Assembly: GCF_002162035.1 (NCBI RefSeq)
Contig: NZ_CP021138.1
Coordinates: 1,116,001-1,180,000 of the forward strand
Direction of reading: 5' to 3'
DNA length: 64,000 nucleotides
DNA from: Sulfuriferula sp. AH1
GTDB taxonomy: Bacteria > Pseudomonadota > Gammaproteobacteria > Burkholderiales > Sulfuriferulaceae
The notes under the pieces were generated by a model. The model searched no databases, was not told where the DNA came from, and saw nothing but the letters and a program-made list of their open reading frames with translations. Below, piece by piece: positions 5,547 to 24,572 of this stretch (its first letter is position 1; each line of letters starts with the position of its first letter). The position numbers were made by a program, and so were the translations under genes.

Positions 5547-5691
5547 AGGTAATTAAGTGTTTGCTGAATTTAAATAGCTGCGGGTTTAAGGGCTGGTATA
5601 AAATCGTATAAAAATTTGTAAGACAACAACCGACGTTGAAATGTTCGGTGTTGACGTTTCTCAGATAAATTATAAAAAGCGGTTCAGGGAT

Positions 5692-6965
5692 ATGATTGAT
5701 AAAAAAATATTTAAGGTAGGGGCATTCGTCTTGTCTTCAGTAGGTTCACCGGCACAGGCGGGAGAGTGGTCAGCCGAAATCGATTTCGAGATGCGGCATT
5801 TTTTGAACAAGTCCCAGACCGTGCAAGAGCTGGCAAATGCCACAACCGCATTTCAGCAAGAGCAAATTGCATCTACCGGTTTGGCAAGCCAGGATCAGCC
5901 GTCCATTGTAATCCAGCCAAGCTATTTTAATGAGTGGGATGGAAAACAAAATTCATTTTCGTTCAAGCCGTTTTATCGTTGGGATGACAGAGACGATTAT
6001 CGTACGCATTTTGATATCAGGGAAATGGTATGGCGCTCCGCTCATGGTGGAACCGAGCATCCGTGGGATACCCGGGTGGGAATAGACAAGGTGTTCTGGG
6101 GAGTGGCCGAATCGCATCATCTCGTCGATATCGTCAATCAGACTGATGATGTCGAAGATCCCAAAATGGAGCAAAAATTAGGGCAACCCATGGTGCGAAC
6201 TACGCTTAGTCGTGACTGGGGTACGCTTGATATGTTTGTACTGCCATTTTTCAGGGAGCGTACTTTTGCAGGCCCGGAGGGACGGCTGCGCTCGCCTACC
6301 TCCCTGGTTCGTTCGCCGGTACATTTCGAATCCGGTCAAGGCGAGAATCATGTTGATTATGCACTGCGCTGGTCAAAAGGGCTGGGTCGGCTGGATATAG
6401 GGCTTACCTATTTTAGGGGAACAAATCGCGACCCGCGTATTTCACAGCTCGATTCATTGATTACCCCGAGAATCCACTGGGGCTTCAAGTCAATTATGAT
6501 TTGATCAGTCAGGTCGGATTGGATGTGAATTATCTGTTGGGCGACTGGATACTGAAACTGGAGGCGATTGATCGTCATTCGAATTTCGAGCGATTTTATG
6601 CCTTTGTAACGGGGGTTGAATACACTTTTAACGGTATTTACAACACCCAGATGGATCTGGGTACTTTCCTTGAGTATAACTTTGACAGTAGGGGGCAAGG
6701 TTCAGCGGGGGTGTTGCAGGACGATTTGTTCACGGGCTTGCGCCTGGCAATGAATGACGAGCAGTCCACTGAAATCAAATTGGGAATCATGACGGATTTG
6801 AATGACGCTTCCCGTACCACCCGCGTCGAGCTTAACCGGCGATTGGATGATAAGTGGAGTATCCGGTTTCTGGGGCAGGGCTATCACCGGATGGACAGTG
6901 GTAATCCGATCTATCTCTTTAAAGAGGATAGTTTCATTCAATCGTCGCTGGTCAGATACTTCTAA
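5692..6965 (+). pseudogene. outer-membrane beta-barrel protein, frameshifted copy
   Basis: Two overlapping frames together match the intact neighbour at 7030 along its length. The first gives a signal peptide (KIFKVGAFVLSSVGSPAQA, then GEW) and runs to a stop at 6504. The second continues from about 6470 and ends in aromatic RYF, the usual C-terminus of an outer-membrane barrel. Restoring one C in the CCCC run at 6464-6467 rejoins them as ...LITPENPLGLQ..., aligning with ...VITANPAGLY... of the paralogue. Frame use moves from 5692 to that of 6501, exactly one missing base. ATG 5692 gives a clean signal peptide; ATG 5641 in the same frame adds 17 residues. It may be a pseudogene, a phase-variable state or a base-calling error. 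Function unknown beyond a probable outer-membrane channel. Confidence 0.8.
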
Positions 6966-7029
6966 TAATAGTTGGTATGTTTATTGCTTTTTGTTTGCGG
7001 GGAAACTTGCTAACTAGGGATAAATAATA

Positions 7030-8397
7030 ATGTCGATTCGTTTTGAGAAAAAACTTGGATTCAAAATAGGGGTGTTGGTTTGTGCATTAATGAATGCCGC
7101 CGCCGTTCGGGCGGGAGAATGGACTACCGAGGTTGATCTGGATTACCGTTATTTCCGTAAGCCGGCTGCACAAGTGCCAAGCGGAACAAGCACTCAGGAA
7201 ACTGCAGCCAGCTTTTATCAGTTTCTGGTCAGTATGGGCGTGCCTGTCAGCAATTTTGTCAGCGTGCCTCAAGCCGTACTGGCGGTGTCTGCAGCGCAAG
7301 CGGGCAGCTCCGGTACGCAGGGTAATAACGAGCCATCGGTAGTGATACAGCCGGCTTACTTTAACGAGTGGGCGAATAAAACCAACTCCTTTTCCTTCAA
7401 GCCGTTCTTTCGTTACGACAACATGGATGATTCGCGTACCCATGCCGATATACGGGAGATGGTATGGACTTCCAGACATGGTACTGATGCCAAACCATGG
7501 GATCTGCGCATAGGTATTGATAAAGTATTTTGGGGCGCGGCTGAATCGCAGCATCTGGTTGACGTCATCAACCAGACTGACGACGTTGAAAACATCAACC
7601 GTGAAAGCAAGCTCGGCCAGCCTATGGTGCGCGCGACTGTGAGTCGTGGCTGGGGAACGCTGGATGCCTTTATTCTGCCATGGTTCCGCGAACGTACTTT
7701 TGCCGGGCCGGATGGACGTTTGCGCCCGTTGGTCTCGTTGGATACCTTGCCTGTAGCATATCAATCCAATGATAAGGCCAGTCATGTCGATTATGCGTTG
7801 CGCTGGTCGAAATCCTTTAATGGTATCGATTTCGGTATTTCCCAGTTTGTGGGAACCAATCGTGATCCGCGAGTCGCCACTTCTCCGGTATATGTAATCA
7901 CTGCAAACCCGGCTGGCTTATATCTCAGTTATGACCAAATGAGTCAGACGAGCGTTGATATGACTGCGGTAAGGGGTAACTGGATTTACAAACTGGAAGC
8001 TTTGCATCGCGATACGAATTATGACCATTACTGGGCGGGCGTAACTGGTGTGGAATACGCATTTAATGGCGTGTTTCATACCCGGTACGATGTAAATACA
8101 TTCCTTGAATACAACTACGACAGTCGCGGTCAAGGCCAGGCCGTTTATCAAAGCGATGTGTTTGTCGGTGCTCTTCTGAATATGAACGATGACAAATCCA
8201 CTCAGCTTAAATTGGGAGTCCTGGTTGATACCAACGACAGTACGCGTAGTACCCGGCTGCAACTCAGCCGTCGCCTGAATGATAACTGGTCAACCAGATT
8301 TGAAGGCCAGTGGTTCAATTCGGTGGATTCGGGTAACCCTTTGAATGCCTACAGAGAGGATAGTTATCTCCAGGCTTCGCTGATGCGGTATTTCTAA
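7030..8397 (+). CDS. outer-membrane beta-barrel protein, porin-like (paralogue of 5692-6965)
   Basis: 455 residues: a signal peptide (KIGVLVCALMNAAAVRA, then GEW), many alternating amphipathic strands rich in Tyr/Phe/Asp, and a C-terminal RYF typical of outer-membrane barrels. The strongest blocks shared with the upstream paralogue are NEW, NSFSFKPF, DKVFWG-AES-HLVD, NQTDDVE, LGQPMVR, FRERTFAGP-GRLR and the NRDPR segment. I do not recognise a substrate. The position just before an MMPL/RND exporter and a LolA-like protein suggests the outer-membrane part of an export or uptake path. AGGG precedes the ATG by about 9 nt. A strong terminator follows at 8534, so it is probably transcribed apart from the RND gene. 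Confidence 0.85.
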   Translation: MSIRFEKKLGFKIGVLVCALMNAAAVRAGEWTTEVDLDYRYFRKPAAQVPSGTSTQETAASFYQFLVSMGVPVSNFVSVPQAVLAVSAAQAGSSGTQGNNEPSVVIQPAYFNEWANKTNSFSFKPFFRYDNMDDSRTHADIREMVWTSRHGTDAKPWDLRIGIDKVFWGAAESQHLVDVINQTDDVENINRESKLGQPMVRATVSRGWGTLDAFILPWFRERTFAGPDGRLRPLVSLDTLPVAYQSNDKASHVDYALRWSKSFNGIDFGISQFVGTNRDPRVATSPVYVITANPAGLYLSYDQMSQTSVDMTAVRGNWIYKLEALHRDTNYDHYWAGVTGVEYAFNGVFHTRYDVNTFLEYNYDSRGQGQAVYQSDVFVGALLNMNDDKSTQLKLGVLVDTNDSTRSTRLQLSRRLNDNWSTRFEGQWFNSVDSGNPLNAYREDSYLQASLMRYF

Positions 8398-8533
8398 TAC
8401 GTTGCCATGACTGTCGGATTCCTGACATTGTTGTGCGGAATTCGACGATTGCAGGTGAGGTTTGCCTGTTGCGGTTGAGTCTCCGAATTGAATTTGACGT
8501 GTCGCGTCACCAGGAATTGCAGGACGATCCATT

Positions 8534-8568
8534 GCCGCATATTTTTAAATTGAATATGCGGCTTTTTT
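8534..8568 (+). terminator. rho-independent terminator
   Basis: Perfect 10-bp arms GCCGCATATT (8534-8543) and AATATGCGGC (8553-8562) followed by six T (8563-8568). It ends the outer-membrane protein transcription unit, 32 bp before the RND transporter start. Confidence 0.9.
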
Positions 8569-8599
8569 ATGCGAATTCGCGTATGTGTCTGGGTAGGCT

Positions 8600-10915
8600 A
8601 TGAAAAATAATTTTGCAATGCGCTTTGGCTACGGCGTGATCAAATATCGTTGGATGGTCGTTTTGTTAACGATCATTATCGCCGTAATTGCCGGCTTGGG
8701 CATGAAAAAACTAACCATGAGCGGGGATTACAAGGTCTTTTTCAAGGCTGATAATCCGCAACTGGTGGCATTCGAGGCATTACAAAAAACTTATACAAAA
8801 AGTGACAACATCATGTTTGTGCTCGCGCCCAAAAATGGTGACGTCTTTACCCGGAAAAATCTGGCTGCAGTCATCTGGTTAACGGATAAGGCATGGAAAA
8901 TGCCGTATTCGTCGCGTGTCGATTCCGTCACCAACTATCAGAACAGTACCGCAGACGGCGATACGCTGAATGTCCGGGATCTGGTATCGAAACCGGAAAC
9001 GCTGACAGAGGCAAATTTAAAAAGTATTCGGGAAATCGCGGTGCATGACCCGTTGCTGGAAAAACGGATTATTTCCCCAAGTGGCCATGTCACTGGCGTG
9101 AATGTGACTTTCCAGTTGCCCGACAGGACCAAGGCCAAGGCGATTCAAGTGAGCGTTGCCAAGGCGCGTGAACTGAAGCGTGAATTTGAAGCCCGTTATC
9201 CGGATATGGAAGTGTATCTGACGGGTGTGGTGATGATGAACGCGGCATTTCTGGAAGCAACACGCGATGATATGCGCACGCTGGTTCCCATCATGATGGC
9301 GGTAGTGGTTGTGATGCTGCTAATCACTTTGCGCAGCGTAGCGGGTACGGCCCTGATCATGCTCAGTATCGTATTGTCAATTGCAGTCACTATGGGATTG
9401 GGTGGATGGTACGGCATAATCATGTCGGCGCCGCTGGCAACTGCACCATTGGCGATCATGATCATGGCCATTGCGGATGGCGTGCACGTTCTGTCGCATT
9501 ACGGCCATTCGGTGCGTCATGGGATGCCGCGCGAAGAAGCCATGGCTGAGAGTATCGGCTCCAATTTGGGAGCGATGTTCCTGACCAATATCCTGTCCGC
9601 AATTGGTTATGCCAGCATGGTCTTCAGCGAAGTGCCGCCATTCCAGACGCTGGGTGTGGTAGTGGCTGTCGGCATCGTCGTGGGCTTTCTGATTTCAGTG
9701 GTGCTGATTCCGGCAGCCATGATTATTTTGCCGGGGCGTGTCAGTCAGGTGCATTCGCGCGAAGACGAGAAGATCACCTTGATGGAGCGTTATACCGAAT
9801 TTTTCCTGGCGCATCGTAACAAGATGCTGGCTGGGAGTCTTCTGGTCACCCTTGTATTGGGTACCTTCATAACTCGTAACGAATTTAACGATTCGTTCCA
9901 TAAATATTTCGCAGAAAGCACCGAGTTCCGGCAGGCAACCGATTTCACGCTAAAAAACCTCACGGGCGTGTACCTGATTGACTATTCCCTGTCTTCCGGA
10001 CATCCAGAATATGTAAATGATCCCGCGTTCCTGCAAAAAGTGAATGAATTTGCCCAATGGTATCGCCAACAGCCTGAAGTGCTGCACGTCAATACCTTCA
10101 CTGACATTATGAAGCGGCTCAACAAGAATATGCATGGAGACGATCCTGCTTATTACAATTTGCCGGATGAGCGGGCACTGGCCGCGCAGTATCTGCTGTT
10201 ATATGAAATGTCCCTGCCTTATGGGCTGGACTTGAATGATCAGATCAATCTGGACAAATCTTCCACGCGTTTCACCGTGACATTGAAAGCAGTGAGTTCC
10301 AACGAAATGATCGCTGTGGAAGAGCGCGCCAATCAATGGTTAAAGGCTAACGGTCTGGAAATTATCCAAACGACGGGAGGCTCGGGGGCAGGCATGATGT
10401 TTGCTCATATCGGTAAGGAAAATGGCAAGAGCATGATGATCGGAAATATCTGGCAGATCGTGCTGATTTCCGCGCTTATTGTGTTTGCAGTACGTTCATT
10501 CAAGTTGGGCGTCATCAGTCTGATTCCTAACTTGATGCCTGCGGTCATGGCTTATGGGGTGTGGGGTATCGCTGTAGGGGAAATCAATATGGCTGTGTCC
10601 ATGGTAGGTGGTATTTCACTTGGCATCGTCGTTGACGATACGGTTCATTTTTTGAGCAAGTATTTACAGGGACGCCGCGAGCTGGGGTTCGACGCTGAAA
10701 AAAGCATACGTTATGCATTCGATCTGGCCGGTGTCCCCATGTGGATCTCGACTTTTATTCTGGTAGCGGGATTCCTGGTGCTGGCCACATCGCCGTTTAG
10801 CATGAATGCGGATATGGGGATTCTGACTGCGATTACGATCACGTTTGCGGCTTTCGCAGAAGCGTTCATGCTGCCGGGTTTGTTGTTGCTGGTAGACCGT
10901 AGTGAAAAAATTTAA
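8600..10915 (+). CDS. MMPL/RND-family transporter
   Basis: 771 residues with the two-fold RND layout: TM1 (~17-36), a large periplasmic loop, a membrane block around residues 230-375 containing ADGVHVLSHY, TM7 near 405, a second loop, and a second membrane block from ~615 containing VVDDTVHFLSKY. These DxxxH segments sit where MMPL and HAE-3 type exporters carry their proton-relay residues. It likely moves a hydrophobic or lipid-linked cargo out of the inner membrane, partnered by the LolA-like protein encoded next. Substrate unknown. Its stop lies 22 bp before the start I chose for the partner, so the two should be co-translated or coupled. Confidence 0.92.
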   Translation: MKNNFAMRFGYGVIKYRWMVVLLTIIIAVIAGLGMKKLTMSGDYKVFFKADNPQLVAFEALQKTYTKSDNIMFVLAPKNGDVFTRKNLAAVIWLTDKAWKMPYSSRVDSVTNYQNSTADGDTLNVRDLVSKPETLTEANLKSIREIAVHDPLLEKRIISPSGHVTGVNVTFQLPDRTKAKAIQVSVAKARELKREFEARYPDMEVYLTGVVMMNAAFLEATRDDMRTLVPIMMAVVVVMLLITLRSVAGTALIMLSIVLSIAVTMGLGGWYGIIMSAPLATAPLAIMIMAIADGVHVLSHYGHSVRHGMPREEAMAESIGSNLGAMFLTNILSAIGYASMVFSEVPPFQTLGVVVAVGIVVGFLISVVLIPAAMIILPGRVSQVHSREDEKITLMERYTEFFLAHRNKMLAGSLLVTLVLGTFITRNEFNDSFHKYFAESTEFRQATDFTLKNLTGVYLIDYSLSSGHPEYVNDPAFLQKVNEFAQWYRQQPEVLHVNTFTDIMKRLNKNMHGDDPAYYNLPDERALAAQYLLLYEMSLPYGLDLNDQINLDKSSTRFTVTLKAVSSNEMIAVEERANQWLKANGLEIIQTTGGSGAGMMFAHIGKENGKSMMIGNIWQIVLISALIVFAVRSFKLGVISLIPNLMPAVMAYGVWGIAVGEINMAVSMVGGISLGIVVDDTVHFLSKYLQGRRELGFDAEKSIRYAFDLAGVPMWISTFILVAGFLVLATSPFSMNADMGILTAITITFAAFAEAFMLPGLLLLVDRSEKI

Positions 10916-10937
10916 TCAATTTAATAAAGGGATGATT

Positions 10938-11720
10938 ATGTATAAGTTATTGGCAATATTGGCATTAATTGTACCTGTGAGTGCCGTTGCACAAACGACG
11001 CAGGAAAAAGGCCTGGCGATCGCGAAGCAGCAGGACGCAAAAAATAGCGGATTTAAAGACTACACCAACGATATCGTCATGACCTTGAAAAATGCGCAAG
11101 GCCAGGAGTCGGTGGACTACCTGCATTCGATGACCCTGGAAGTTACAGCTGCCGGGGAGGGCGACAAGAGCAAACTTGTGTTTGATAAGCCTGCCGATGT
11201 GAAGGGGACGGCCATGCTAACTTATAGCCACGGTCTGCAACCGGATGATCAGTGGCTGTTCCTGCCTGCGGTGAAACGTGTTAAGCGTTTGAATTCTAAT
11301 AACAAGTCAGGCCCGTTCATGGGCAGTGAATTCGCTTATGAAGATTTGAGTTCACCTGTCGTGGAGAAATTTTCTTACAACTGGCTGCGTGATGAGGCAT
11401 GCGGTGAATGGCAATGTTATGTTGTTGAACGCACTCCTCGCTATGAGTATTCGGGATACGTTCGTCAGGTTACCTGGATAGATACCAAGGAATTGCGTAC
11501 GGTCAAGATTGATTACTATGACCGTAAGAATGAGTTGCTGAAAACCCTGACTCAAAGTGGATTCAAGCTTTATAAAGGGAAATTCTGGCGTGCCGAGACC
11601 GGCAAGATGGTCAATCATATCACCGGAAAAAGCACCGTTATGGTTTCCAGTAATTTCCAGTTCGGCACCGGGTTGACAGCAGCCGGATTCGAGCCCAATT
11701 CATTGCAGGATACACATTGA
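10938..11720 (+). CDS. LolA-like outer-membrane lipoprotein-sorting family protein
   Basis: 260 residues from ATG 10938, which has AAAGG 7 nt upstream; upstream in-frame starts at 10902 and 10932 are worse placed. A signal peptide (LLAILALIVPVSAVA, then QTT) is followed by a beta-rich domain resembling the LolA-like family that commonly sits beside MMPL exporters. Recognisable segments are LTYSHGLQPDDQWLFLPA-KRVKRL, SGPFMGSEFAYEDL and the EWQCYVVER-RYEYSGY region. It would act in the periplasm, probably accepting cargo from the RND protein. Two Cys in the D-E-A-C-G-E-W-Q-C segment may form a disulfide. Confidence 0.88.
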   Translation: MYKLLAILALIVPVSAVAQTTQEKGLAIAKQQDAKNSGFKDYTNDIVMTLKNAQGQESVDYLHSMTLEVTAAGEGDKSKLVFDKPADVKGTAMLTYSHGLQPDDQWLFLPAVKRVKRLNSNNKSGPFMGSEFAYEDLSSPVVEKFSYNWLRDEACGEWQCYVVERTPRYEYSGYVRQVTWIDTKELRTVKIDYYDRKNELLKTLTQSGFKLYKGKFWRAETGKMVNHITGKSTVMVSSNFQFGTGLTAAGFEPNSLQDTH

Positions 11721-11736
11721 ACAACGTTCGGGGTGA

Positions 11737-13569
11737 ATGAAAATGTTAAAACTGGCTAACGGATTCGTGCTGGCTGTTACAGTACTGTGTACATTGGTGC
11801 TAATTCAGCCATCGAGTGCGACTGAGCCTGATTTGGCTAAAAGCTCCGTTACCAAAACGATTACATTCATTCACCTTAATGATCTGCATGCGCATCTGAC
11901 CACGCATCCCGATCTGGTGCGCTATGGGGACAAAGACAAACTGGAACAGCGCGGCGGCATAGCCAGACTGGCTACTTTAATCAAGCGCTTACGCAAACAG
12001 TATCCGGATAGCGTTTTGATGAATGTGGGCGATGCGTTCCATGGCGGAGTAGAGGCGCTGTTTACCAACGGAAACGCCATCATTGATCCGGTAAATGCTT
12101 TAGGGGTCGATGTGGGTGTAGTCGGAAATTGGGATTATGCGTATGGTCCGATCGTGACACGCTCGCGCTACGGCTCATTGAAATCCCGAGGCTGGTTCAC
12201 CGACGGCAAGATAAAACGGCCGAATTATCCGAATTTGGCCGCTAATTTGAAAATCTCCCTGCCGTTCTTTCGTCGTGGAGATTATCTGATGCCACCGACG
12301 ATGACCAAGGCGATAAATGGAGTGCAAGTCGGTTTTATCGGTATTACTTCCGATATTGTGCCGCGCATGCACCCCATGCTTGCCTTCGGTCTGAATTTTC
12401 TTGATTACAACACTCAGCAATATACCGATTTAATCGAAAAGCATGCAACCGAATTGCGCCAGAACGGTGCGCAAATCGTGGTGGTAATGAGTGAGCTGGG
12501 CGTACAGAAGGATTACTCACTGGCTAATCACATTGCACCGAATTTAGTCGATGTCTTTTTCTCGGCGCATACGCATGAAGTTGTGCGTAAACCGCTTACC
12601 TCGAGCAGCGGTGCCCTGGTCGTGGAGTCCGGAGGTGGTGGAGGATATTTGGGACAAATGAATATTACCGTCCATGGTGGGCACGTGATTCGTCGGGATT
12701 GGCATTTGTTCGATGTGGATACGAAAATCCCCGAAGACGCTGCAATGAAAACATTGGTAGCTGCTGCGCGCGCACCATTTTTGGGTAATCAGGTAAATGT
12801 GAAATTGCCGAGTATGGCAGTCGATATGCGTCTGACTCAATCCATTGATACTGTCGTAGGTTATACCGGTCTCCCTCTGGACAGGCGTAATGCATTGGAA
12901 AGTACATTTAACGACGTCATGGCAGACGTCATGCGCAAAATCGGCAAGACACAAATAGCCATTACTCCCGGATTCCGGTTCGACAGTCCGATTGTCGCGG
13001 CAGGGACTTTGCTTGAAGACAATACCATCGCCAACGGCGCGATTACGCTTGAAGACGTCTACCGCTATTTCCCGGTACCTTATCTGATTGCTATGGGTTC
13101 GATACGTGGCGACAAACTGCGTCAGGCGATAGAACAGAATCTGACGAGTGTTTTCTCGACAGACATGTCTGCCCAAGGTGGCGGTTGGGCAGATGGCTGG
13201 TCGGGCTTGAAAATCAAACTGGATCTGGCTCATGCAAACGGTAACCGCATCGTCGATCTGCAGCTGAAAGATGAAGGACGCGCGCTGATACCCGATGAAA
13301 TGGTTACGGTTACAGGTTGTTCGCGGCCATTTGATACCAAGGCTGATACGACCTTATGCAGTTATGACGGTTTTGAGTCAGTCGATGTGCTAACAAATCC
13401 TGCTACAAGAAAAGAATGGACGGCGATAGATTTATTTGTTTATGGATTGCAGAACGGTCTGATCGATAAGCAGGTGCGACATGATATAGAAGATGTACAT
13501 CACACCAAAATGTGGCCGCAGAATGAATTCGTGCAGCCGCTTAGGGGTGTTGGAGAAGGTGGCGAATAG
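11737..13569 (+). CDS. SoxB-like periplasmic metallohydrolase (5'-nucleotidase superfamily), copy 1
   Basis: 610 residues with an N-terminal signal peptide. The metallophosphatase half runs to about residue 340 and the 5'-nucleotidase C-terminal half to the end, with SoxB-like motifs such as ITPGFRF. Metal-site motifs: NDLHAH (D49, H51), GDAFHG (D99), GNWDY (N131, with W where nucleotidases have H), SELG (E253 where the family has SHxG) and SAHTHE (H278, H280). SoxB is the Mn thiosulfohydrolase of the Sox pathway. This is a divergent relative, so thiosulfohydrolase activity is inference and another phospho- or sulfo-ester is possible. It starts 16 nt after the LolA-like gene and precedes the tsdBA-like genes by 129 nt. 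Confidence 0.85.
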   Translation: MKMLKLANGFVLAVTVLCTLVLIQPSSATEPDLAKSSVTKTITFIHLNDLHAHLTTHPDLVRYGDKDKLEQRGGIARLATLIKRLRKQYPDSVLMNVGDAFHGGVEALFTNGNAIIDPVNALGVDVGVVGNWDYAYGPIVTRSRYGSLKSRGWFTDGKIKRPNYPNLAANLKISLPFFRRGDYLMPPTMTKAINGVQVGFIGITSDIVPRMHPMLAFGLNFLDYNTQQYTDLIEKHATELRQNGAQIVVVMSELGVQKDYSLANHIAPNLVDVFFSAHTHEVVRKPLTSSSGALVVESGGGGGYLGQMNITVHGGHVIRRDWHLFDVDTKIPEDAAMKTLVAAARAPFLGNQVNVKLPSMAVDMRLTQSIDTVVGYTGLPLDRRNALESTFNDVMADVMRKIGKTQIAITPGFRFDSPIVAAGTLLEDNTIANGAITLEDVYRYFPVPYLIAMGSIRGDKLRQAIEQNLTSVFSTDMSAQGGGWADGWSGLKIKLDLAHANGNRIVDLQLKDEGRALIPDEMVTVTGCSRPFDTKADTTLCSYDGFESVDVLTNPATRKEWTAIDLFVYGLQNGLIDKQVRHDIEDVHHTKMWPQNEFVQPLRGVGEGGE

Positions 13570-13698
13570 TTTTCAAGCATGAGCGCCATGCAACCGGATA
13601 GCTTGTTCCGCTACGTAAAGCGGCAGATTTGTGTGAGTGATATGTAAGCAGATGCTGATTTAAATGTAATTAAGTTCAATTTATGTGTGGTTATTTTT

Positions 13699-14496: not shown

Positions 14497-14500
14497 CCCA

Positions 14501-15418
14501 ATGACGCGATTGATTTATTCGTTGATAGCGCTTTCCGGATTAATTGCTCAGACCGGTTCGGCCACCGAATTGCAACAGGGTGAAGTCAGGCCTGCAGCAT
14601 ACGATGCCCGCGCCAACATTCCCACGGGATTGACCCGGGAAAAAGCCATTCGCCAAATTCCCGCGATTAATCCGGGCGAATATTTTGTTCCGCCTGAGGT
14701 TGGCGATATCCCCACAAGCAAATACGGTGATATGGTGAAACTGGGGCGGAATATCTTCATCGACACCCAGCATTATGCCAAGCGTTACGTGGGAAATGGC
14801 CTGAATTGCAGCAATTGCCATTTGCAGGAAGGGCGCAAGCCATTTGCCGGGCCGCTGTGGGCGGCTTATCCGATGTATCCCGAATTCCGTAATAAAACAC
14901 GGGATGTAGTGACGTACGAAAAACGGGTTCAGGACTGTTTCAGATTCAGCATGAATGGGATTGCACCAACGTTGGATTCACCTGAAATCAAGGCGATAAC
15001 CGCTTACTCGCATTGGCTTTCGAAAGGCGCGCCAATTAACAAGGAATTGCCTGGCCGCGGATTTGCACGGTTAAGCAAGCCCAGGGATCCGACCCCGGTA
15101 AATGGCGAAAAATTGTACAAGGAAAATTGCGCAAGCTGTCATGGCATTGATGGCAAAGGGCAAAAGTTTGCCAATCGAGGTGGATACATGTTCCCGCCTT
15201 TGTGGGGAGGGGATTCTTTCAATCACGGTGCCGGAATGAGTTCGGTCAAGGATTGCGCGCAGTTTACCAAGGCCAATATGCCTTTGGGCAAAGGCTGGAC
15301 TCTTACCGATATGGAAGCCTGGGATGTCTGTACCTACATCTGGCTGCAGGACCGACCGTGGGATCCGCGTTTTGGCTGGTTCTTTAATATATTTACACCG
15401 CCTACCGGCGGTAATTGA
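14501..15418 (+). CDS. tsdA: TsdA-type dihaem thiosulfate dehydrogenase / tetrathionate reductase, copy 1
   Basis: 305 residues with a signal peptide (LIYSLIALSGLIAQTGSA). Haem 1 motif CSNCH (103-107); haem 2 motif CASCH (210-214). C146, in QDCFRFSMNG, lies 39 residues after the haem 1 His and corresponds to the unusual axial Cys of TsdA enzymes. Other TsdA hallmarks are PLWAAYPMYPEFR, YSHWLSKGAP, FPPLWG-DSFNHGAGM and KANMPLG. The haem 2 distal pair is Asn259-Met260; to my knowledge Campylobacter TsdA, which favours tetrathionate reduction, also has Asn-Met, while Allochromatium TsdA has Lys-Met. It should couple two thiosulfates to tetrathionate (or the reverse) in the periplasm, passing electrons to the TsdB-like cytochrome. 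Confidence 0.92.
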   Translation: MTRLIYSLIALSGLIAQTGSATELQQGEVRPAAYDARANIPTGLTREKAIRQIPAINPGEYFVPPEVGDIPTSKYGDMVKLGRNIFIDTQHYAKRYVGNGLNCSNCHLQEGRKPFAGPLWAAYPMYPEFRNKTRDVVTYEKRVQDCFRFSMNGIAPTLDSPEIKAITAYSHWLSKGAPINKELPGRGFARLSKPRDPTPVNGEKLYKENCASCHGIDGKGQKFANRGGYMFPPLWGGDSFNHGAGMSSVKDCAQFTKANMPLGKGWTLTDMEAWDVCTYIWLQDRPWDPRFGWFFNIFTPPTGGN

Positions 15419-15433
15419 ATGAGGGGTGTGGAT

Positions 15434-16378
15434 ATGAGTTTATCTCGCATGCACAAATATCTTCTCGCTGCGGGTGCGATATTCGGTATTGCTTTCGGTA
15501 GCTGGGTGATTGCTGATTCGGATACCGAAGACGGGGATGATTTGCCGACTTTGGACAGTATTGAAGTTCGCGCCAGTATGCAGCAGCCGAAACTGACGTT
15601 GCCGAATGAATTGACGGTGGTGCCTGTAGTAAAGCCTGGGGAATATTTCGTACCGCCGCGACTGGAAGATTTGACTGAGAGCAAATATGCCGATGAAGTT
15701 CGGCTCGGCCGTAACATTTTTGTGCATACCCAGCAATACGCCAAACGTTATGTAGGCAATGGATTGAATTGCAGCAGCTGTCACTTGCAGGAAGGGCGTA
15801 AACCGCATGCGGCACCATTGTGGGCAGCCTATCCAATGTACCCGATGTATCGGGATAAAAGCCGGCAGGTGGTGTCTTTCCAGGAGCGCTTGCAGGATTG
15901 TTTCCGTTTCAGCCTGAATGGGATTGCGCCCACGCTCGATTCTCGCGAAATTGAAGCGCTGACGGTATATGCGCAGTGGTTGTCTACCGGAATTCCCATG
16001 GGGACGATCATGTCCGGGCGAGGGTTTGCCCGCATCGATAAATCGGAAGATCCATCGCCGTTCAACGGTGCGATTGTTTACAAGAATTATTGCGCCAGTT
16101 GTCATGGCGATGATTTGATGGGCAAGAAATTTACCAACCGGGACGGTTACATGTTCCCGCCTTTGGCAGGCCCGGATAGTTATAACAAGGGTGCGGGCAT
16201 GCACAAGGTTAAAACCTGTGCGAGTTTTGTGAAGGCGAATATGCCGTTAGGCAAACCCTTTACCCTGAATGATGATGAGGCGCTTGAGGTATGTGTGCAT
16301 ATGTTTATCCAGGATAGGCCCTGGGATCCGCGTAAAGGAATGTTCATGAGTATATTTATGCCTGTGACGGAGGGTTGA
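15434..16378 (+). CDS. tsdA: TsdA-type dihaem thiosulfate dehydrogenase, copy 2
   Basis: 314 residues from ATG 15434, which has GAGGGG 6-8 nt upstream; an ATG at 15419 is in frame but lies on the Shine-Dalgarno itself. A signal peptide is followed by a TsdA core clearly paralogous to copy 1: CSSCH (haem 1), QDCFRFSLNG (axial Cys), CASCH (haem 2) and KANMPLG (Asn-Met ligand pair). The N-terminus has an acidic stretch (DSDTEDGDD) absent from copy 1. Tandem copies suggest duplication with division of labour, such as different direction, potential or partner; this cannot be settled from sequence. It lies in the same operon as copy 1 and sulP. Confidence 0.9.
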   Translation: MSLSRMHKYLLAAGAIFGIAFGSWVIADSDTEDGDDLPTLDSIEVRASMQQPKLTLPNELTVVPVVKPGEYFVPPRLEDLTESKYADEVRLGRNIFVHTQQYAKRYVGNGLNCSSCHLQEGRKPHAAPLWAAYPMYPMYRDKSRQVVSFQERLQDCFRFSLNGIAPTLDSREIEALTVYAQWLSTGIPMGTIMSGRGFARIDKSEDPSPFNGAIVYKNYCASCHGDDLMGKKFTNRDGYMFPPLAGPDSYNKGAGMHKVKTCASFVKANMPLGKPFTLNDDEALEVCVHMFIQDRPWDPRKGMFMSIFMPVTEG

Positions 16379-16380
16379 AA

Positions 16381-18120
16381 ATGATAAATCGGATCCGTCA
16401 TTCGGCGAAAATTCGTAATGCGTTATTCCCGTTTATGCTGTGGATACCACTGCTGGACAAGGCAACTGTACGAAATGACATTGTGGCAGGCATTACCGCG
16501 GGGGTGTTGATTCTGCCGCAGGCAATCGCATTGGCAACACTGGCAGGATTGCCGCCTGAATACGGTTTATACACTGCCATTTTCCCGGTCATGATTACCG
16601 CGCTATATGGCTCGTCCTGGCATTCCCTGTCGGGTCCGAATACCGCACTGGCTGTATTAACTGCGATGACGATCGCACCATTTGCCAATATCGGCACCCC
16701 TGATTACGTGCAATATGCCATTACTCTGACGTTTATGGCCGGTGTATTGCAACTGGCTTTCGGTTTTTTACGTCTGGGTGTGGTATTCAACTATTTCTCA
16801 CATACGGTGATGGTCGCCATCGTTACGGCGGTCGGCATCATTATTGTCATACAGCAAGTAGGGAATTTCATGGGCGTGATCATGAACCTCAACGAATCGC
16901 TGGATGAAGTGGTTTACCAGATTATTCTGGCGATTCCGCGGGCTAACATATATGCAGTGATGGTCGGTATTATCACTGTGGCATCCGGGCTGATTATTAA
17001 GCGCATGCGTCCAAAATGGCCGCATTACATCATGGCTGTGGCGATAGGCATGCTGGCTGCCTGGGTGATAGGGATGTGGGTTGGCAGTGCAACAGCGCAT
17101 ATCGATATGCTGGGTTATATGAGTTTTTCTGCCATGCCTTTTTCCCATCCTGACTTCTCGCCGGAAGATTTTGGCCCGTTCTCGAACTTTGCATTTCCTG
17201 CCGCTATCGGTATGGCCGTGCTGGGTTTGATGCAATCGTCTGTGATAGCGCGTTCCATGGCGGCAAAGTCAGGTCAGCAAGGTCTGGACATTAATCAGGA
17301 AGTCGTGGGGCAGGGGCTATCCAATGTGGTCGGCAGCTTCCTGTCGTGTTTCCCCAGTTGCGGATCGTTCAATCGTAGCGCGGCCAACCTTGAGGCTGGC
17401 GCGCGCACTCCACTGGTGGGGTTGATATCCGCATTAGCGTTGGCGCTGCTGGTATTTATCGCGGCCCCGGTGATCGCCTATCTGCCCGTACCGGTAATGG
17501 CCGGTGTGCTGTTTCTGGTGGGGGCGGCGCTGATTAAAATAAAAGACATACGCCATTTATTGGCCATCAAGGACGGCGGTCGTATCGTATTCCTGCTGGT
17601 ATTGGCGGTGACTCTGGGAAGCGGCCTGGATGACGGCGTGTATCTAGGCATATTTCTGTCAATCGCAGGGTATTTACGCAGTGTTTCCAAGCCCTCACTG
17701 GAATTGCTGTTTGAACAGGAGAAATCCTATTATTTATCCGACGGAATGGTTGCAGATGATACAACGGCGATTGCCATCTCCGGCAGCCTGTTCTTCGGTT
17801 CCGGTCACAATATCGAGCGTGCATTTATCAATGTGTCGAAAGACGACCATCGCAAAGCAAATCTGATTGTCATTGCCGAATATGCAACAGGTATCGACGT
17901 ACCCTCCGCGGAACTGATTGCACAGGAAGCGCGTCGCCGACAGGCCAATGGCTACCGGCTGACGCTATGGGTACGCCCTTCTGCACTGGTTGATCCGCAG
18001 GTAACCAAGATATTGGAGAAGGCCTTGGGCAGCGAGAATATCTTTTGCAGCGGACGTGCCAAGAAGAGTATGGCAGTCACAGGCCTTATTGCGCCGATTG
18101 CCCGTAATAAATTGGTTTAA
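16381..18120 (+). CDS. SulP-family anion (sulfate) transporter with STAS domain
   Basis: 579 residues from ATG 16381, with GGAGGG 6 nt upstream. The N-terminal ~420 residues are a multi-pass membrane domain with the SulP signature region AGITAGVLILPQAIALATLAGLPPE split over TM1-2 and the SLSGPNTALAVLTA segment. The C-terminal ~120 residues form a cytoplasmic STAS domain (AIAISGSLFFGSGHNIE). SulP proteins move sulfate, bicarbonate or other anions. Within a thiosulfate/tetrathionate cluster, sulfate or another sulfur oxyanion is the likely cargo, but bicarbonate cannot be excluded. It starts 2 nt after the second tsdA. Confidence 0.92.
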   Translation: MINRIRHSAKIRNALFPFMLWIPLLDKATVRNDIVAGITAGVLILPQAIALATLAGLPPEYGLYTAIFPVMITALYGSSWHSLSGPNTALAVLTAMTIAPFANIGTPDYVQYAITLTFMAGVLQLAFGFLRLGVVFNYFSHTVMVAIVTAVGIIIVIQQVGNFMGVIMNLNESLDEVVYQIILAIPRANIYAVMVGIITVASGLIIKRMRPKWPHYIMAVAIGMLAAWVIGMWVGSATAHIDMLGYMSFSAMPFSHPDFSPEDFGPFSNFAFPAAIGMAVLGLMQSSVIARSMAAKSGQQGLDINQEVVGQGLSNVVGSFLSCFPSCGSFNRSAANLEAGARTPLVGLISALALALLVFIAAPVIAYLPVPVMAGVLFLVGAALIKIKDIRHLLAIKDGGRIVFLLVLAVTLGSGLDDGVYLGIFLSIAGYLRSVSKPSLELLFEQEKSYYLSDGMVADDTTAIAISGSLFFGSGHNIERAFINVSKDDHRKANLIVIAEYATGIDVPSAELIAQEARRRQANGYRLTLWVRPSALVDPQVTKILEKALGSENIFCSGRAKKSMAVTGLIAPIARNKLV

Positions 18121-18144
18121 TTATTTTGATGCAAGGATAGAAAC

Positions 18145-18567
18145 GTGAAAATTAAATTCTGGTTAATGGCGGTGGTTTTATCGTTGGCAAGTTTGAGCGC
18201 AGTTGCGGCTGAACAGGTGAAACATCGATTATTGATACAAGTGAGTGAAGATAGCATCGAGCGTTTGATGGCCGCATTAAATGCTGCCAAATTTGTACAG
18301 GCTCAATATGGGGCACCCAATGTTGAAATCGAGATTGTCGTGTTCGGTCCGGGTGTGCAAACCCTGAAATATTATGCCCCGAAACCTGTTCCAGATCGCG
18401 TTAAGCAGGAAAAGTACAATGGTATCCGCATACTGGTATGTGATTATTCGATGCGCGCCGCCAAATTGCGCCCATCCGACATGCTGCGCGAGGTCAGCTA
18501 TGTGCCTTCCGGCGTAGTCGAGATCATGGAAAAGGAACAGCTGGGCTGGTCTTATATTCGTCCCTGA
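18145..18567 (+). CDS. exported DsrE/F-like protein
   Basis: 140 residues. An N-terminal signal peptide (KFWLMAVVLSLASLSAVAA) is followed by a DsrE-like alpha/beta domain: HRLLIQVSED, the AALNAAKFVQAQYG helix, EIEIVVFGPGV, and VCDYSMRAAKLRPSDML with the single Cys at residue 99. DsrE-type proteins carry persulfide sulfur on such a Cys. The signal peptide implies a periplasmic version, which could accept sulfur from thiosulfate or tetrathionate turnover by its neighbours. The function is inferred from fold and context. It starts 24 nt after sulP. Confidence 0.85.
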   Translation: MKIKFWLMAVVLSLASLSAVAAEQVKHRLLIQVSEDSIERLMAALNAAKFVQAQYGAPNVEIEIVVFGPGVQTLKYYAPKPVPDRVKQEKYNGIRILVCDYSMRAAKLRPSDMLREVSYVPSGVVEIMEKEQLGWSYIRP

Positions 18568-18649
18568 GCACATTTCTTGCTTTTGATTAGGTTTGTATAA
18601 GGATGTTATGGACACACTTGGTCAGATAAGGTGTGTCGGGAAAAAAATA

Positions 18650-20404
18650 ATGTTAAAAACGATACGCGCTATTACATTGACGGTTTGTTTATCCGCAATT
18701 TGCCAGTCCGGAACTTCGATTGCCGCGGGTAGCGGTGATGTGACTTTTATCCATATGGGGGATTTGCATGGCCATTTGATCCCGCGCCCGAACATGCGTG
18801 AAGGTGACCCCGATCAGGGGCTGATGATGGGAGGCTTGGCTTACGTTTATGATGAAATCAAGAAAATCCGCAAAGCACATCCTGATGCATTACTGGTGAA
18901 CGGCGGTGATACCGTACAGGGTTCAGCCGAGGCGCTTTATACCCGTGGCGGCGCGATGGTGGACATTCTCAATATGTTCAAGATCGATGCCTTTAATCCC
19001 GGGAACTGGGATTATCTGTATGGTACGGAGCGTTTCCGCGAATTGTTTGCCGGGGACAAGCCGTTGGCAAACTGGCATGCGTTATCGGCCAATTTATATT
19101 ATTCAACATTGTATGAGTTTCCTGAAACCATTTACGCCAAACAGGCAGGTCAAAGGGTGCTGAAGCCCTATCTGATTCGCGATGTAAATGGCGTAAGAGT
19201 AGGGATCGTCGGGCTGACGGCTGATCGTGGCCCACAAGCAGTAAGTACACGGGTGATGGAGGGTTTTACCATGACCCCAGGCGAATTTGAAGTTGCAGCC
19301 GCTGTGCCGTTATTGCGGAAAAAGCATAAGGTGGATTTGATTGTGCTGATTTCGGAACGAGGCCTGGGAGCAAACCTGGAGATCGCCGAGACCATTCCTG
19401 GTATAGATATCATTTTGTCTTCCGACATGCATGAAGAATCGCGTAAGGAGCTTATCGCAAAGAGCGGCACGATCCTGGTGGAAGAAGGGCAGGATGGTAC
19501 GATTGTCGGAGAACTGACTGCCCATGTGCGCAATGGCAAGATGGTCGGACATCAATGGACATCGCACCGGATCACTACCAAGAACAATCAGCCTGATCCT
19601 GTGATCGCTGCCAAGATTGAAGAAATCCGGCGTCCCTTTACCAAGGCAGGGTTTGTTCCGCATGTGAACCCCATCAATGCGGCCATATTGCGTACGCCGA
19701 TCGATACCGTGATCGGTTTTACCAAGGTGCCGTTACACCGTGCTAATTTTGCCGGGTCGAAGGGCATGAATGCCGTCATTGAAGGTTCATCGCATGATTT
19801 CCTTGCGGATGCATTCCGGGCGGCTTGCGATTCCGATTTGGGCATGATCCGCGGTTTCCGCTATGGTACGCATATCGCACCCGGCCCGATTAAACTGGAG
19901 GATATTTTCCATTACATCCCGATCGGTCCGCAAATCGGGTGCGGCAAAATCTCTGGCGATGACATTCACTGGATGCTGGAACGCGGTGCGGATTCCTCCC
20001 TGTCACCTTATGTGAGTTGGTGGGGCGGTGGATGGCAAGTTGCATTTTCCGGGCTGACCTACGATCTGGATCCTTATAAAGAGTACGGTAACCGGGTTTC
20101 AGATATCCGTGTGGATGGCGATCCAATCGACATGGAAAAGCTCTACACCGTCGGCGGCTACTGGTATGTGGATAATCCAGATATGATTAATCGCCATAAA
20201 GCCTGGGAAATCAATGTGCTAAAGGATAAGGATGGCGGAATCCTGGATGGTACCGATATCGTTGCCTATTATTTGCAGATGTTACCCGACCACACCGTGA
20301 ATCCCGAGCCGAATCGGGTGCATCTGTTACGGCCATTACCCAAGTCGCTTAATGTCAGTAAAGAAATACAGCCATTAAAAGGAGTCTACTTTCCTGACTA
20401 TTAA
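18650..20404 (+). CDS. SoxB-like periplasmic metallohydrolase, copy 2
   Basis: 584 residues from ATG 18650, giving a compact signal peptide (LKTIRAITLTVCLSAICQS). ATG 18608, with AAGGA 4 nt upstream, is an alternative that adds 14 residues. Metal-site motifs: GDLHGH (D38, H40), GGDTVQGSAEALYTRG (D87; very close to SoxB), GNWDYLYG (N119, W120), ISERGL (E236 in place of the SHxG His) and SSDMHEE (D259, H261 where the family has GHTH). The C-terminal half carries RGFRYGTHIAPG and SWWGGGWQ. It is a divergent SoxB relative, more SoxB-like than copy 1 in the GGDT segment but with more ligand changes. Confidence 0.85.
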   Translation: MLKTIRAITLTVCLSAICQSGTSIAAGSGDVTFIHMGDLHGHLIPRPNMREGDPDQGLMMGGLAYVYDEIKKIRKAHPDALLVNGGDTVQGSAEALYTRGGAMVDILNMFKIDAFNPGNWDYLYGTERFRELFAGDKPLANWHALSANLYYSTLYEFPETIYAKQAGQRVLKPYLIRDVNGVRVGIVGLTADRGPQAVSTRVMEGFTMTPGEFEVAAAVPLLRKKHKVDLIVLISERGLGANLEIAETIPGIDIILSSDMHEESRKELIAKSGTILVEEGQDGTIVGELTAHVRNGKMVGHQWTSHRITTKNNQPDPVIAAKIEEIRRPFTKAGFVPHVNPINAAILRTPIDTVIGFTKVPLHRANFAGSKGMNAVIEGSSHDFLADAFRAACDSDLGMIRGFRYGTHIAPGPIKLEDIFHYIPIGPQIGCGKISGDDIHWMLERGADSSLSPYVSWWGGGWQVAFSGLTYDLDPYKEYGNRVSDIRVDGDPIDMEKLYTVGGYWYVDNPDMINRHKAWEINVLKDKDGGILDGTDIVAYYLQMLPDHTVNPEPNRVHLLRPLPKSLNVSKEIQPLKGVYFPDY

Positions 20405-20469
20405 GGTCATCGCACAGCTTAAGAATTGGCCGCTGTGTTCGAAATACAAGAATGAAACAGGAGGGTAGT

Positions 20470-20970
20470 ATGCAGCAGGACATTATCGTTTGGCCAGGCT
20501 GGCTGGCCGGGGCTGGCATAGGATTGCTGATGGTGGCGTTTTACTGGATTACCGGTAAGCAGATGGGCGTATCGAGAGGATACTGCAATTTGTGGTCTTA
20601 TGTATCCAAATTGCCTTTCTTCCAGCAAAAGGAATATACCGATAACCTGTGGCGGCTCTGGTTCATCGGCGGAATAATTCTGGGGGGATTCGTAGCCACT
20701 GTCATTGCGCATCCAGGGGAATGGCATTTCCATTTTGATATGGGGCAAGCCTACGACATGCTATTGCCGCATAACCTATGGTTGAAAATGCTGGTTCTCT
20801 TTGTCGGTGGCGCCATTATGGGTTTGGGCGCCCGCTTGGCTGGCGGATGTACCAGTGGTCACGTTATTGCAGGGATTCCGATGCTGAATTTATCCAGTCT
20901 GCTGGCAGGCATGCTGTTTTTTGCGGGCGGCCTGCTTGCAGTCCAGTTGACCGCGCGAATGGTGTCGTGA
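20470..20970 (+). CDS. YeeE/YedE-family sulfur-compound transporter, N-terminal half protein
   Basis: 166 residues from ATG 20470, which has GGAGGG 5 nt upstream; the in-frame ATG at 20452 lies before that ribosome-binding site. About four membrane helices are visible. Conserved Cys are C39 (RGYCNL) and C127 in GGCTSGH, the motif of YeeE/YedE permeases such as the thiosulfate importer TsuA, where such Cys relay thiosulfate. Here the two halves of the usual single protein are separate genes. It would sit in the inner membrane and bring thiosulfate-type sulfur into the cell. It overlaps the next gene by 1 nt. Confidence 0.87.
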   Translation: MQQDIIVWPGWLAGAGIGLLMVAFYWITGKQMGVSRGYCNLWSYVSKLPFFQQKEYTDNLWRLWFIGGIILGGFVATVIAHPGEWHFHFDMGQAYDMLLPHNLWLKMLVLFVGGAIMGLGARLAGGCTSGHVIAGIPMLNLSSLLAGMLFFAGGLLAVQLTARMVS

Positions 20971-21395
20971 TGAATAATATGATTTTTTTAATACTGGGAA
21001 CGATATTTGGATTGTTGCTCAGCCTAGCCGGGGCGACCACTTTCGATTTTTATGCCCAGCTTTTCTTGCTGCAAAATCCGCAATTGGCCAGGGTGATTGT
21101 TACCGCAGTAGGTGTAGGCACTTTGGGAATCTGGCTGATGAAGCGAGTGCAGGCTAAAGCTGTCATGACAGGCGAACCTATCGCCTTTGAGAAGAAAGGG
21201 CAGCAACGAGGCTGGATCTTGGGAGCGTTGATGTTCGGTGCCGGCTGGGGCATTACCGGTACTTGCCCAGGGTCTGCTCCTGCGATGCTGGGAGAAGGCA
21301 AGTTTATTATCATTCCAGTGCTACTGGGCGTAATTGCAGGAACTTATCTGTACGGCTGGCTTGAAAGCCGACGTGACGGAAACTGCGGGCCATGA
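20970..21395 (+). CDS. YeeE/YedE-family sulfur-compound transporter, C-terminal half protein
   Basis: 141 residues from the ATG at 20970, which shares one base with the TGA of the preceding gene (TGATG); the open frame extends further upstream, but only as a shadow of that gene. Four membrane helices and the second YeeE/YedE Cys motif GITGTCPGSAP (C99) are visible. With the upstream protein it completes the pseudo-symmetric transporter. Last gene of the plus-strand sulfur cluster; the convergent siaD ends 38 nt later. Confidence 0.87.
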   Translation: MNNMIFLILGTIFGLLLSLAGATTFDFYAQLFLLQNPQLARVIVTAVGVGTLGIWLMKRVQAKAVMTGEPIAFEKKGQQRGWILGALMFGAGWGITGTCPGSAPAMLGEGKFIIIPVLLGVIAGTYLYGWLESRRDGNCGP

Positions 21396-22152: not shown

Positions 22153-22164
22153 GAGGGTAAGTAA

Positions 22165-22566: not shown

Positions 22567-22576
22567 GACAATTCCC

Positions 22577-23128: not shown

Positions 23129-23148
23129 ATTATTTTCCTGGTATGTTC

Positions 23149-24429: not shown

Positions 24430-24572
24430 TTTTGCAGGCGAAATCAATGGAAATTAGCGCAATATTAAAGTGCTACTATTACAGCATAATGAACTGCGTA
24501 TTTAGAATTTGTTGCTCTTGTGATGCAGTTTGTTTTACATGCTGCATGAATGGTATGTGTTCTTGAGGTGTA

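Follow-up and report, generated by a model that had tools for sequence, protein, structure and literature searches.

A conserved gene cluster with tsdBA, an exported dsrE and SoxB-like genes in Sulfuriferula sp. AH1, and its possible place in thiosulfate oxidation

Gene content of the cluster in AH1

Here we describe a compact gene cluster with predicted roles in sulfur metabolism, located at positions 5692-21395 of a 64,000-nucleotide stretch of the chromosome of Sulfuriferula sp. AH1 (NZ_CP021138.1, positions 1,116,001 to 1,180,000; hereafter the window). A first-pass annotation, made from the sequence alone, had depicted it as a one-strand block with short gaps that combines TsdBA-type cytochromes, two SoxB-like hydrolases, an exported DsrE, a SulP transporter and a split YeeE/YedE. 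The open reading frame (ORF) list of the window agreed that all cluster genes lie on the + strand, and the named genes were all found; a putative RND pump and a LolA-like protein (8600-11720) had, however, been left unnamed, and the first gene is frameshifted. The gaps were indeed short from TsdB onward (-4 to 47 bases), but a 202-base gap containing a terminator-like hairpin precedes the RND gene, so that the block may form two transcripts. The features of the cluster are as follows.

5692..6965, + strand: disrupted copy of the following gene, whose exported product is probably of barrel type (frameshift near 6500; ORFs 5641-6504 and 6501-6965 overlap)
7030..8397, + strand: exported protein, probably an outer-membrane barrel as judged from its C-terminal Phe (ORF)
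8534..8562, + strand: terminator-like hairpin followed by a T run (consensus scan)
8600..10915, + strand: RND/MMPL inner-membrane pump, nearest to HAE3 (PF03176, 2.5e-35; TIGR00921 HAE3, 140 bits, below the cut-off of 352)
10902..11720, + strand: LolA-like periplasmic protein, DUF1329-related (PF17131, 1.5e-56; PF07044, 2.4e-11; likelier start at about 10938)
11737..13569, + strand: SoxB-like 1 (TIGR04486, 174 bits, cut-off 550)
13687..14496, + strand: TsdB, two-haem cytochrome c (PF00034, two CxxCH)
14501..15418, + strand: TsdA1, predicted two-haem thiosulfate dehydrogenase (PF21342 SoxA/TsdA domain, two CxxCH)
15419..16378, + strand: TsdA2 (PF21342, two CxxCH)
16375..18120, + strand: SulP-family anion transporter (PF00916, 5.4e-79; TIGR00815, 294 bits, cut-off 380)
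18145..18567, + strand: exported DsrE with Cys99 as sole cysteine (PF02635, hydrophobic N-terminal leader)
18593..20404, + strand: SoxB-like 2 (TIGR04486, 210 bits, cut-off 550; likelier start at about 18650)
20452..20970, + strand: YeeE/YedE half a (C-terminal half of the Pfam profile, PF04143 positions 176-309)
20970..21395, + strand: YeeE/YedE half b (PF20398, DUF6691, 4e-13; N-terminal profile part, PF04143 positions 10-107)

The family assignments of the cytochromes and of the DsrE, SulP and YeeE/YedE proteins were borne out by these domain matches. The two TsdA proteins were 61% identical over 281 columns, and five matches to solved sequences were all of TsdA type. When aligned to solved TsdA, TsdA1 was seen to have kept the cysteine that we take to ligate haem 1, which together with the SoxA/TsdA haem domain and the two CxxCH motifs is consistent with thiosulfate dehydrogenase. 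The two YeeE/YedE proteins cover opposite parts of PF04143, and the stop codon of half a shares one base with the start codon of half b (TGATG at 20968-20972, with the ATG at 20970); against the TsuA model they scored 49 and 19 bits, with a cut-off of 400.

No family could be given to the putative barrel proteins. The first fragment had zero Pfam matches, and the protein at 7030..8397 had no family at E<=0.001, with one Pfam row at E 0.09 (chance level) and no NCBIfam or PHROGs match. A tentative label of DUF1302 for this protein found no support in the Pfam and NCBIfam searches. In two congeners (G016 and G017; G numbers denote genomes and L numbers stretches around loci) the first copy is unbroken and aligns full length to the protein of the next gene, and the frameshift at 5641-6965 in AH1 is either true decay or a read error.

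The terminator scan used a consensus only and found 20 sites in comparison with 17.4 expected from shuffled sequences, the promoter scan gave 16 sites, below the shuffle mean of 24.1, and the tandem-repeat scan gave a single short array outside the named genes. Directly after the cluster lies a - strand block at 21433-24447 that, by ORF reading, encodes GGDEF, STAS-like, ATPase-like and PP2C-like proteins. Among eight loci compared, this block was present in G016 and G017 only.

Conservation of the cluster and its parts

Within the genus, SoxB-like 1 matched 8 of 18 genomes at E<=1e-40, AH1 included. Matches at E=0 were found in AH1, G002, G006, G016 and G017, those in G001 and G003 being nearer to SoxB-like 2, with the match in G015 left outside this sorting. 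Across 300 genomes of the order, SoxB-like 1 was found in 8 (E<=1e-80) and SoxB-like 2 in 12 (E<=1e-100), and in a phylum sample of 398 genomes, searched with strict limits, AH1 was the sole match for either protein, which left relatives in Erythrobacter flavus (see below) out of reach. A search of genome contigs gave no relative using SoxB-like 1 alone, and nine named loci using an alignment of SoxB-like 2 and its relatives (SoxB2).

The whole set occurs in the same order in four congeners, namely G016 (without the RND gene), G017, G002 and G006 (the last two with one barrel copy). AH1-type flanks are found on both sides in G016 and G017 and on one side in G002 and G006, and common descent of the region could hence explain the conservation within the genus. 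Beyond it, two metagenome-assembled genomes (MAGs) of another family, G105 and G062, carry tsdB-tsdA-tsdA-sulP-dsrE-soxB2 at 64-80% identity, with the RND and LolA genes divergent and a barrel gene downstream, and a Hydrogenophilales MAG (L059) and an unplaced MAG (L060) carry, with a third tsdA, the order tsdB-tsdA-tsdA-tsdA-sulP-dsrE-soxB2-RND-LolA-barrel at 34-59% identity (40-59% from tsdB to soxB2). Nine proteins flanking the AH1 cluster were looked for next to these four clusters and none was found, the flank in L049 being shorter than 1 kb. The barrel-like and the LolA-like proteins are each present in all nine clusters, in differing arrangements (the LolA-like protein of G062 was seen in a longer stretch, L057), the barrel relatives outside AH1 belonging to the clusters of L022-L025, L049, L050, L059 and L060. 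The gene order, whose conservation beyond AH1 had been raised as a question by the first-pass annotation, is thus kept in differing genomic surroundings, with a looser form in Bacteroidota, and this also speaks for the suggested coupling of the parts. As the core recurs in other bacterial families, we conclude that the cluster is a real, conserved gene set.

The looser form was seen on plasmids. Of 48 plasmid records with a TsdA relative, the 40 listed were used, and six of these overlap with the 13 plasmid records holding a SoxB-like 2 relative. Five of the six were inspected, having been chosen because both parts were present. The Runella plasmid has tsdA-dsrE-SoxB-like-porin-yeeE-DUF6691; that of Hymenobacter has yeeE, DUF6691, tsdA, porin, dsrE and a SoxB-like gene; and that of Pontibacter has tsdA and three nucleotidase-family genes, with dsrE about 8 kb off. 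Bradyrhizobium betae carries SoxB-like-tsdB-tsdA in two copies, and in Bosea a SoxB-like gene lies about 10 kb from tsdA. Cytochrome oxidase genes follow tsdB-tsdA, either directly or after one small ORF, on Paraburkholderia, Methylobacterium and Acetobacter plasmids (L071, L073 and L074, respectively).

The SoxB-like proteins and the exported DsrE

That the cluster encodes two divergent SoxB relatives agreed with the NCBIfam search, in which SoxB (TIGR04486) was the best match of both proteins, with scores far below its equivalog cut-off. In a midpoint-rooted tree of 33 rows, where UshA, Natronorubrum and one Pontibacter row formed long branches, SoxB-like 1 (6 rows) and the SoxB2 clade (13 rows) formed separate clades with support of 100/100 each, away from the true SoxB of AH1; the joining of the two clades was weak (83/74). 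The residue patterns were D,H,D,N,W,D,A,E,H,H in 6/6 rows of the SoxB-like 1 clade and D,H,D,N,W,D/E,x,E,D,H in 13/13 rows of the SoxB2 clade, both thereby retaining the first Asp, His, Asp and Asn of UshA. His117 and Asp120, which we take to be the catalytic pair of UshA, are replaced by Trp and by Ala or Leu, respectively, and the pair is thus missing in both proteins, as it is in true SoxB. Among the presumed metal ligands, His217 is Glu in both clades and His252 is Asp in the SoxB2 clade only. True SoxB has the same Trp, carries His (GHWE) instead of Asn, and retains the two later His; SoxB-like 1, with Asn in GNWD and Glu at 217, consequently differs from it at two metal-ligand positions, and SoxB-like 2, with Asp at 252 in addition, differs at three. 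By these residues the two proteins are set apart both from SoxB and from UshA-type nucleotidase.

Among the proteins linked to tsdA on plasmids, those of Bradyrhizobium and Hymenobacter showed the SoxB pattern, and those of Runella and the tsdA-adjacent gene of Pontibacter showed a third pattern, these four scoring 278-326 bits to the SoxB model and hence under 550. Such differing active-site patterns show that several branches of the superfamily came to lie next to tsdA. In the Pontibacter stretch (L064 1711-8640) the pattern differs in each of the three nucleotidase-family genes, with a full UshA pair, the SoxB pattern and the Runella kind. The GNW motif, considered as a mark of tsdA-linked proteins, was rejected, being present in Bacillota and archaeal relatives, and as these relatives carry the Trp it is not diagnostic either.

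These findings bear on whether the SoxB-like proteins could be ordinary periplasmic nucleotidases or phosphoesterases, placed by chance in a sulfur cluster. In favor of that explanation, GNW is shared by Bacillota proteins that carry a 5'-nucleotidase annotation, and one of these scored 325 bits to the SoxB model, above the AH1 SoxB-like proteins, and relatives of SoxB-like 1 were found without sulfur neighbours. The nearest solved sequence was SoxB for SoxB-like 2 and a (venom) 5'-nucleotidase for SoxB-like 1. The structural model of SoxB-like 2 (predicted local distance difference test score, pLDDT, of 75.5) had a Z score of 33.1 to 3ive and 2z1a and of 32.9 to SoxB (2wdf), a tie showing that the predicted fold cannot separate SoxB from nucleotidase; this comparison covered SoxB-like 2 only, the model of SoxB-like 1 (pLDDT 34, from 3 sequences) being unusable. 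With both proteins devoid of the catalytic pair, with Glu in place of the ligand His217 and, in the SoxB2 clade, Asp in place of His252, and with an exported dsrE upstream of most SoxB2-clade genes, we nevertheless regard the nucleotidase explanation as improbable.

The association with dsrE was followed in 16 SoxB2-clade loci (AH1, L022-L025, L049-L053, L058-L061, L026 and L027, with L046-L048 left out). Twelve of the 16 have an exported DsrE gene no more than about 0.8 kb upstream, and nine have tsdA in the locus; the stretches L051, L058 and L061 begin 0.8-2.5 kb upstream, so that a gene could be missed there. In L052 (8771-12006) an exported DsrE is encoded about 0.7 kb upstream of the SoxB2-clade gene, and the 15.8 kb stretch contains no tsdA ORF; dsrE without tsdA was also found in L058 and L051, within stretches that start 2-2.5 kb upstream. 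The cysteine corresponding to Cys99 of AH1 was present in 14/14 aligned DsrE sequences from Proteobacteria and Bacteroidota, the alignment excluding L051, L052, L059 and L060. Searching the 300 genomes of the order for DsrE gave matches in 45, and among the 30 loci listed the seven closest all adjoin SulP and SoxB2 genes, while no SoxB or TsdA gene lies within roughly 1.5 kb of any of the 23 more distant ones. DsrE proteins of the distant type do, however, adjoin a SoxB2-clade gene in G144 and G182, outside those 30 loci, which makes the 0/23 an incomplete picture. In the clusters of the other family, a second exported DsrE, 31-35% identical to the cluster DsrE, is encoded next to the barrel gene, at the opposite cluster end (L050 8808-9380 and L049 559-1017).

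As dsrE accompanies SoxB2 in more loci than tsdA does, and as its cysteine is present in all aligned sequences, we tentatively consider, as a possibility well short of even odds, a carrier cycle free of SoxYZ, in which the parts of SoxY, SoxA and SoxB would fall to DsrE, TsdA and SoxB-like 2, respectively. Tetrathionate from TsdBA might react with the DsrE cysteine to give DsrE-Cys-S-S-SO3 and thiosulfate. The cysteines of DsrE3A from Metallosphaera cuprina have been described to accept a thiosulfonate group from tetrathionate, with no reaction with five other compounds tried (PMC4175335), and the scheme in PMC7608252 shows SoxB cleaving a similar group bound to SoxY. The end of the cycle is equally conjectural: SoxB-like 2 could free sulfate, whereupon the DsrE persulfide might be discharged outward as sulfur or inward via YeeE/YedE.

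Relation to Sox, a proposed pathway and known systems

The first-pass annotation had pointed to a lack of core Sox genes, which is correct inside the window, where no soxYZ lies within the cluster locus. The genome does, however, hold soxXYZAB and a second true soxB elsewhere on the chromosome, so that core Sox is lacking from the window but not from the genome. The one SoxZ match in the AH1 genome lies outside the window, and soxX-Y-Z-A-B is contiguous at L007 7499-11510 (X, Y and A being named by ORF reading), in agreement with the published gene content of AH1, which includes soxXYZAB (PMC5552976). Two true SoxB proteins scored 905 and 784 bits, both above 550, the latter encoded at C1:2107625-2109232 (L028 15593-17290), apart from other sox genes. 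By ORF reading, the neighbours of this second soxB are cytochrome oxidase-like and multihaem cytochrome genes.

Ten genomes with a SoxB2 cluster or a DsrE-SoxB2 piece were counted, namely AH1 (G000), G002, G006, G016, G017, G105, G062 and those of L058, L059 and L060. The soxZ gene was present in nine, the exception being the MAG of L060 (completeness unstated), and a SoxB above the cut-off was present in nine, the exception being G681, the genome of L058. With soxZ in nine of the ten, the cluster is an extra branch added to Sox in the sampled genomes, and the view of it as distinct from classical Sox holds for the SoxB-like proteins, which differ from SoxB, and not for the genomes that carry it. 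The same counts would be expected if the cluster were an accessory of classical Sox, with SoxB-like 1 and 2 acting on SoxYZ conjugates in parallel to SoxB. This we consider unlikely, given that AH1 already has two true SoxB, that two or three metal ligands differ from SoxB, that the neighbour is dsrE and not soxYZ, and that neither soxY nor soxZ was annotated in the Bacteroidota stretches, a count limited to those stretches.

AH1, a mine-tailings strain, has been described as an autotroph that oxidises thiosulfate (PMC5552976, PMC12285272), from which it forms sulfate, acid and elemental sulfur (PMC12285272). The sox, tth, sdo, hdr and soe genes have been reported for the strain, tsdA being absent from the main text of that report (PMC12285272); AH1 was among the genomes searched for TsdA by Watanabe et al. 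2019, and some Sulfuriferula MAGs are reported to carry tsdA (PMC11294248). A pathway built on TsdA and SoxB has been described in Erythrobacter flavus 21-3 (PMC7608252, PMC9426585). There, deletion of tsdA left thiosulfate unused, and the mutant still formed sulfur from tetrathionate; deletion of soxB gave a rise in tetrathionate with no sulfur detected in the medium; and either deletion nearly abolished the sulfur globules.

We lean, somewhat beyond even odds, toward the AH1 cluster being a periplasmic branch from thiosulfate via tetrathionate to sulfate and sulfur, working like the E. flavus pathway. TsdA1 and TsdA2 would couple two thiosulfates to tetrathionate, TsdB shuttling the electrons to the respiratory chain, and SoxB-like 2, perhaps with SoxB-like 1, would cut off the terminal sulfonate as sulfate from tetrathionate or a derived thiosulfonate. 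The sulfane sulfur left over could be taken up by the exported DsrE, be passed outward as zero-valent sulfur via the RND pump with the LolA-like and barrel-like partners, or be imported via the split YeeE/YedE pair and oxidised inside the cell, and SulP might move the anion product. Here we infer the reactions of the SoxB-like proteins, the transported substrates and the direction of flow. We favor this pathway because the gene order is kept across families, the TsdA motifs are kept and the UshA pair is missing as in true SoxB, because solved SoxB is nearest to SoxB-like 2, and because the E. flavus mutants and the sulfur products of AH1 fit.

A different direction would apply if the TsdA pair were mainly a tetrathionate reductase and the cluster served tetrathionate respiration or detoxification of sulfur species. 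TsdA can be bifunctional (PMC7608252), and the direction cannot be read from sequence. Nonetheless, this alternative appears very improbable to us, AH1 being described as a thiosulfate oxidiser (PMC12285272, PMC5552976) and the hydrolase, SulP and YeeE/YedE probably fitting oxidation better.

Several observations weigh against the proposed TsdA-SoxB-like pathway. Regarding gene content, the RND gene shares the locus in eight of nine clusters, being missing in G016, and the YeeE halves are found in six of nine, being missing in L049, L050 and L060 and thus present outside the genus in L059 only. SoxB-like 1 belongs to the cluster in AH1 and the four congeners and to none of the four clusters outside the genus, and three of its relatives outside the genus had no cluster gene in their stretches (that of L034 starting 0.9 kb upstream); it is the weakest cluster member. 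Among the 16 SoxB2-clade loci, seven stretches were without tsdA and four without dsrE, four stretches being short upstream. For 13 tsdA plasmid loci chosen otherwise than the five above, a SoxB-like gene was nearby in 0/13, with both YeeE halves in five and DsrE in one (tblastn), so that the link between tsdA and SoxB-like genes recurs, but is not a rule. The venom nucleotidase match of SoxB-like 1 and the tied fold scores of SoxB-like 2 count on the same side. As for physiology, tetrathionate did not support growth of AH1 in the medium employed (PMC12285272), and soxXYZAB without soxCD, together with the reported tth and sdo, could alone explain its sulfur. In E. flavus the soxB mutant still produced small amounts of sulfur on plates. 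Two SoxB-like genes beside soxB were dispensable for sulfur formation there (PMC7608252), which calls for caution in giving the AH1 SoxB-like proteins the role of its SoxB; the two sets are likened here by published description.

The cluster bears on tetrathionate processing in neutrophilic sulfur bacteria and on the origin of elemental sulfur in AH1-like strains. Should the carrier cycle be true, SoxB-type chemistry would run on a carrier other than SoxYZ. A match to the SoxB domain alone should, furthermore, not be counted as Sox. The gene set is compact, and open to expression and assay.

The route via tsdA and soxB is itself already published. Genomes of Alpha-, Beta- and Gammaproteobacteria and Bacteroidetes are described to hold both genes (PMC7608252), and a further study reported tsdA in eight of the 21 MAGs whose only sox gene was soxB (PMC12345210), so that the tsdA-soxB idea is in print. 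What is possibly new here is a variant of this theme in which DsrE may act as carrier, and in the open-licence literature searched, as far as it was accessible, no description of the order tsdB-tsdA-tsdA-sulP-dsrE-soxB2 was found. E. flavus and AH1 are alike in having tsdB, tsdA and several SoxB-family genes in one cluster, which in E. flavus is induced by thiosulfate (PMC7608252, PMC9426585), and in forming elemental sulfur. They differ in that E. flavus lacks most Sox genes, while AH1 has soxXYZAB, and in that sdoA lies in the E. flavus cluster and outside that of AH1. The term "dsre" is absent from the main text of the E. flavus paper, where an order with dsrE, sulP and RND was likewise not found (PMC7608252). 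With regard to classical Sox (SoxXA, SoxYZ and SoxB), TsdA shares a Pfam domain with SoxA and the SoxB-like proteins are related to SoxB, but the cluster is without SoxYZ and its SoxB-like proteins fall far under the SoxB cut-off and have other metal ligands.

The transport genes have counterparts in other systems. PmpA/PmpB resemble the YeeE/YedE halves of AH1 in being two short proteins that match opposite parts of the family, each with a Cys motif, and PmpAB of Hyphomicrobium was deemed unrelated to sulfur oxidation in the study concerned (PMC11582611). AmeABCD of Castellaniella defragrans, described as a set of RND, LolA/DUF1329 and outer-membrane proteins for tolerance to apolar monoterpenes (PMC6394551), shares with AH1 the HAE3-type RND protein, the LolA/DUF1329 protein and, probably, an outer-membrane protein. 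Unlike Ame, the AH1 set has a barrel-like protein without a family or DUF1302 match, and no AmeC-like gene was noticed, none having been searched for. Given this likeness, export of apolar sulfur by the RND-LolA-barrel set is a reasonable guess, and nothing more. The DsrE3A/TusA system of M. cuprina is, like the DsrE of AH1, a case of a DsrE-family cysteine protein in a tetrathionate setting, but DsrE3A is cytoplasmic, has two Cys and passes thiosulfate to TusA, whereas the AH1 protein is exported, has one Cys and is encoded beside a SoxB-like gene (PMC4175335). Finally, the TsdA and TsdBA proteins of solved structure (4v2k, 4wq7 and 5lo9) agree with those of AH1 in the two-haem TsdA, the Cys and Met motifs and the adjacent TsdB, while in the AH1-type cluster two or three tandem tsdA genes are tied to dsrE and a SoxB-like gene.

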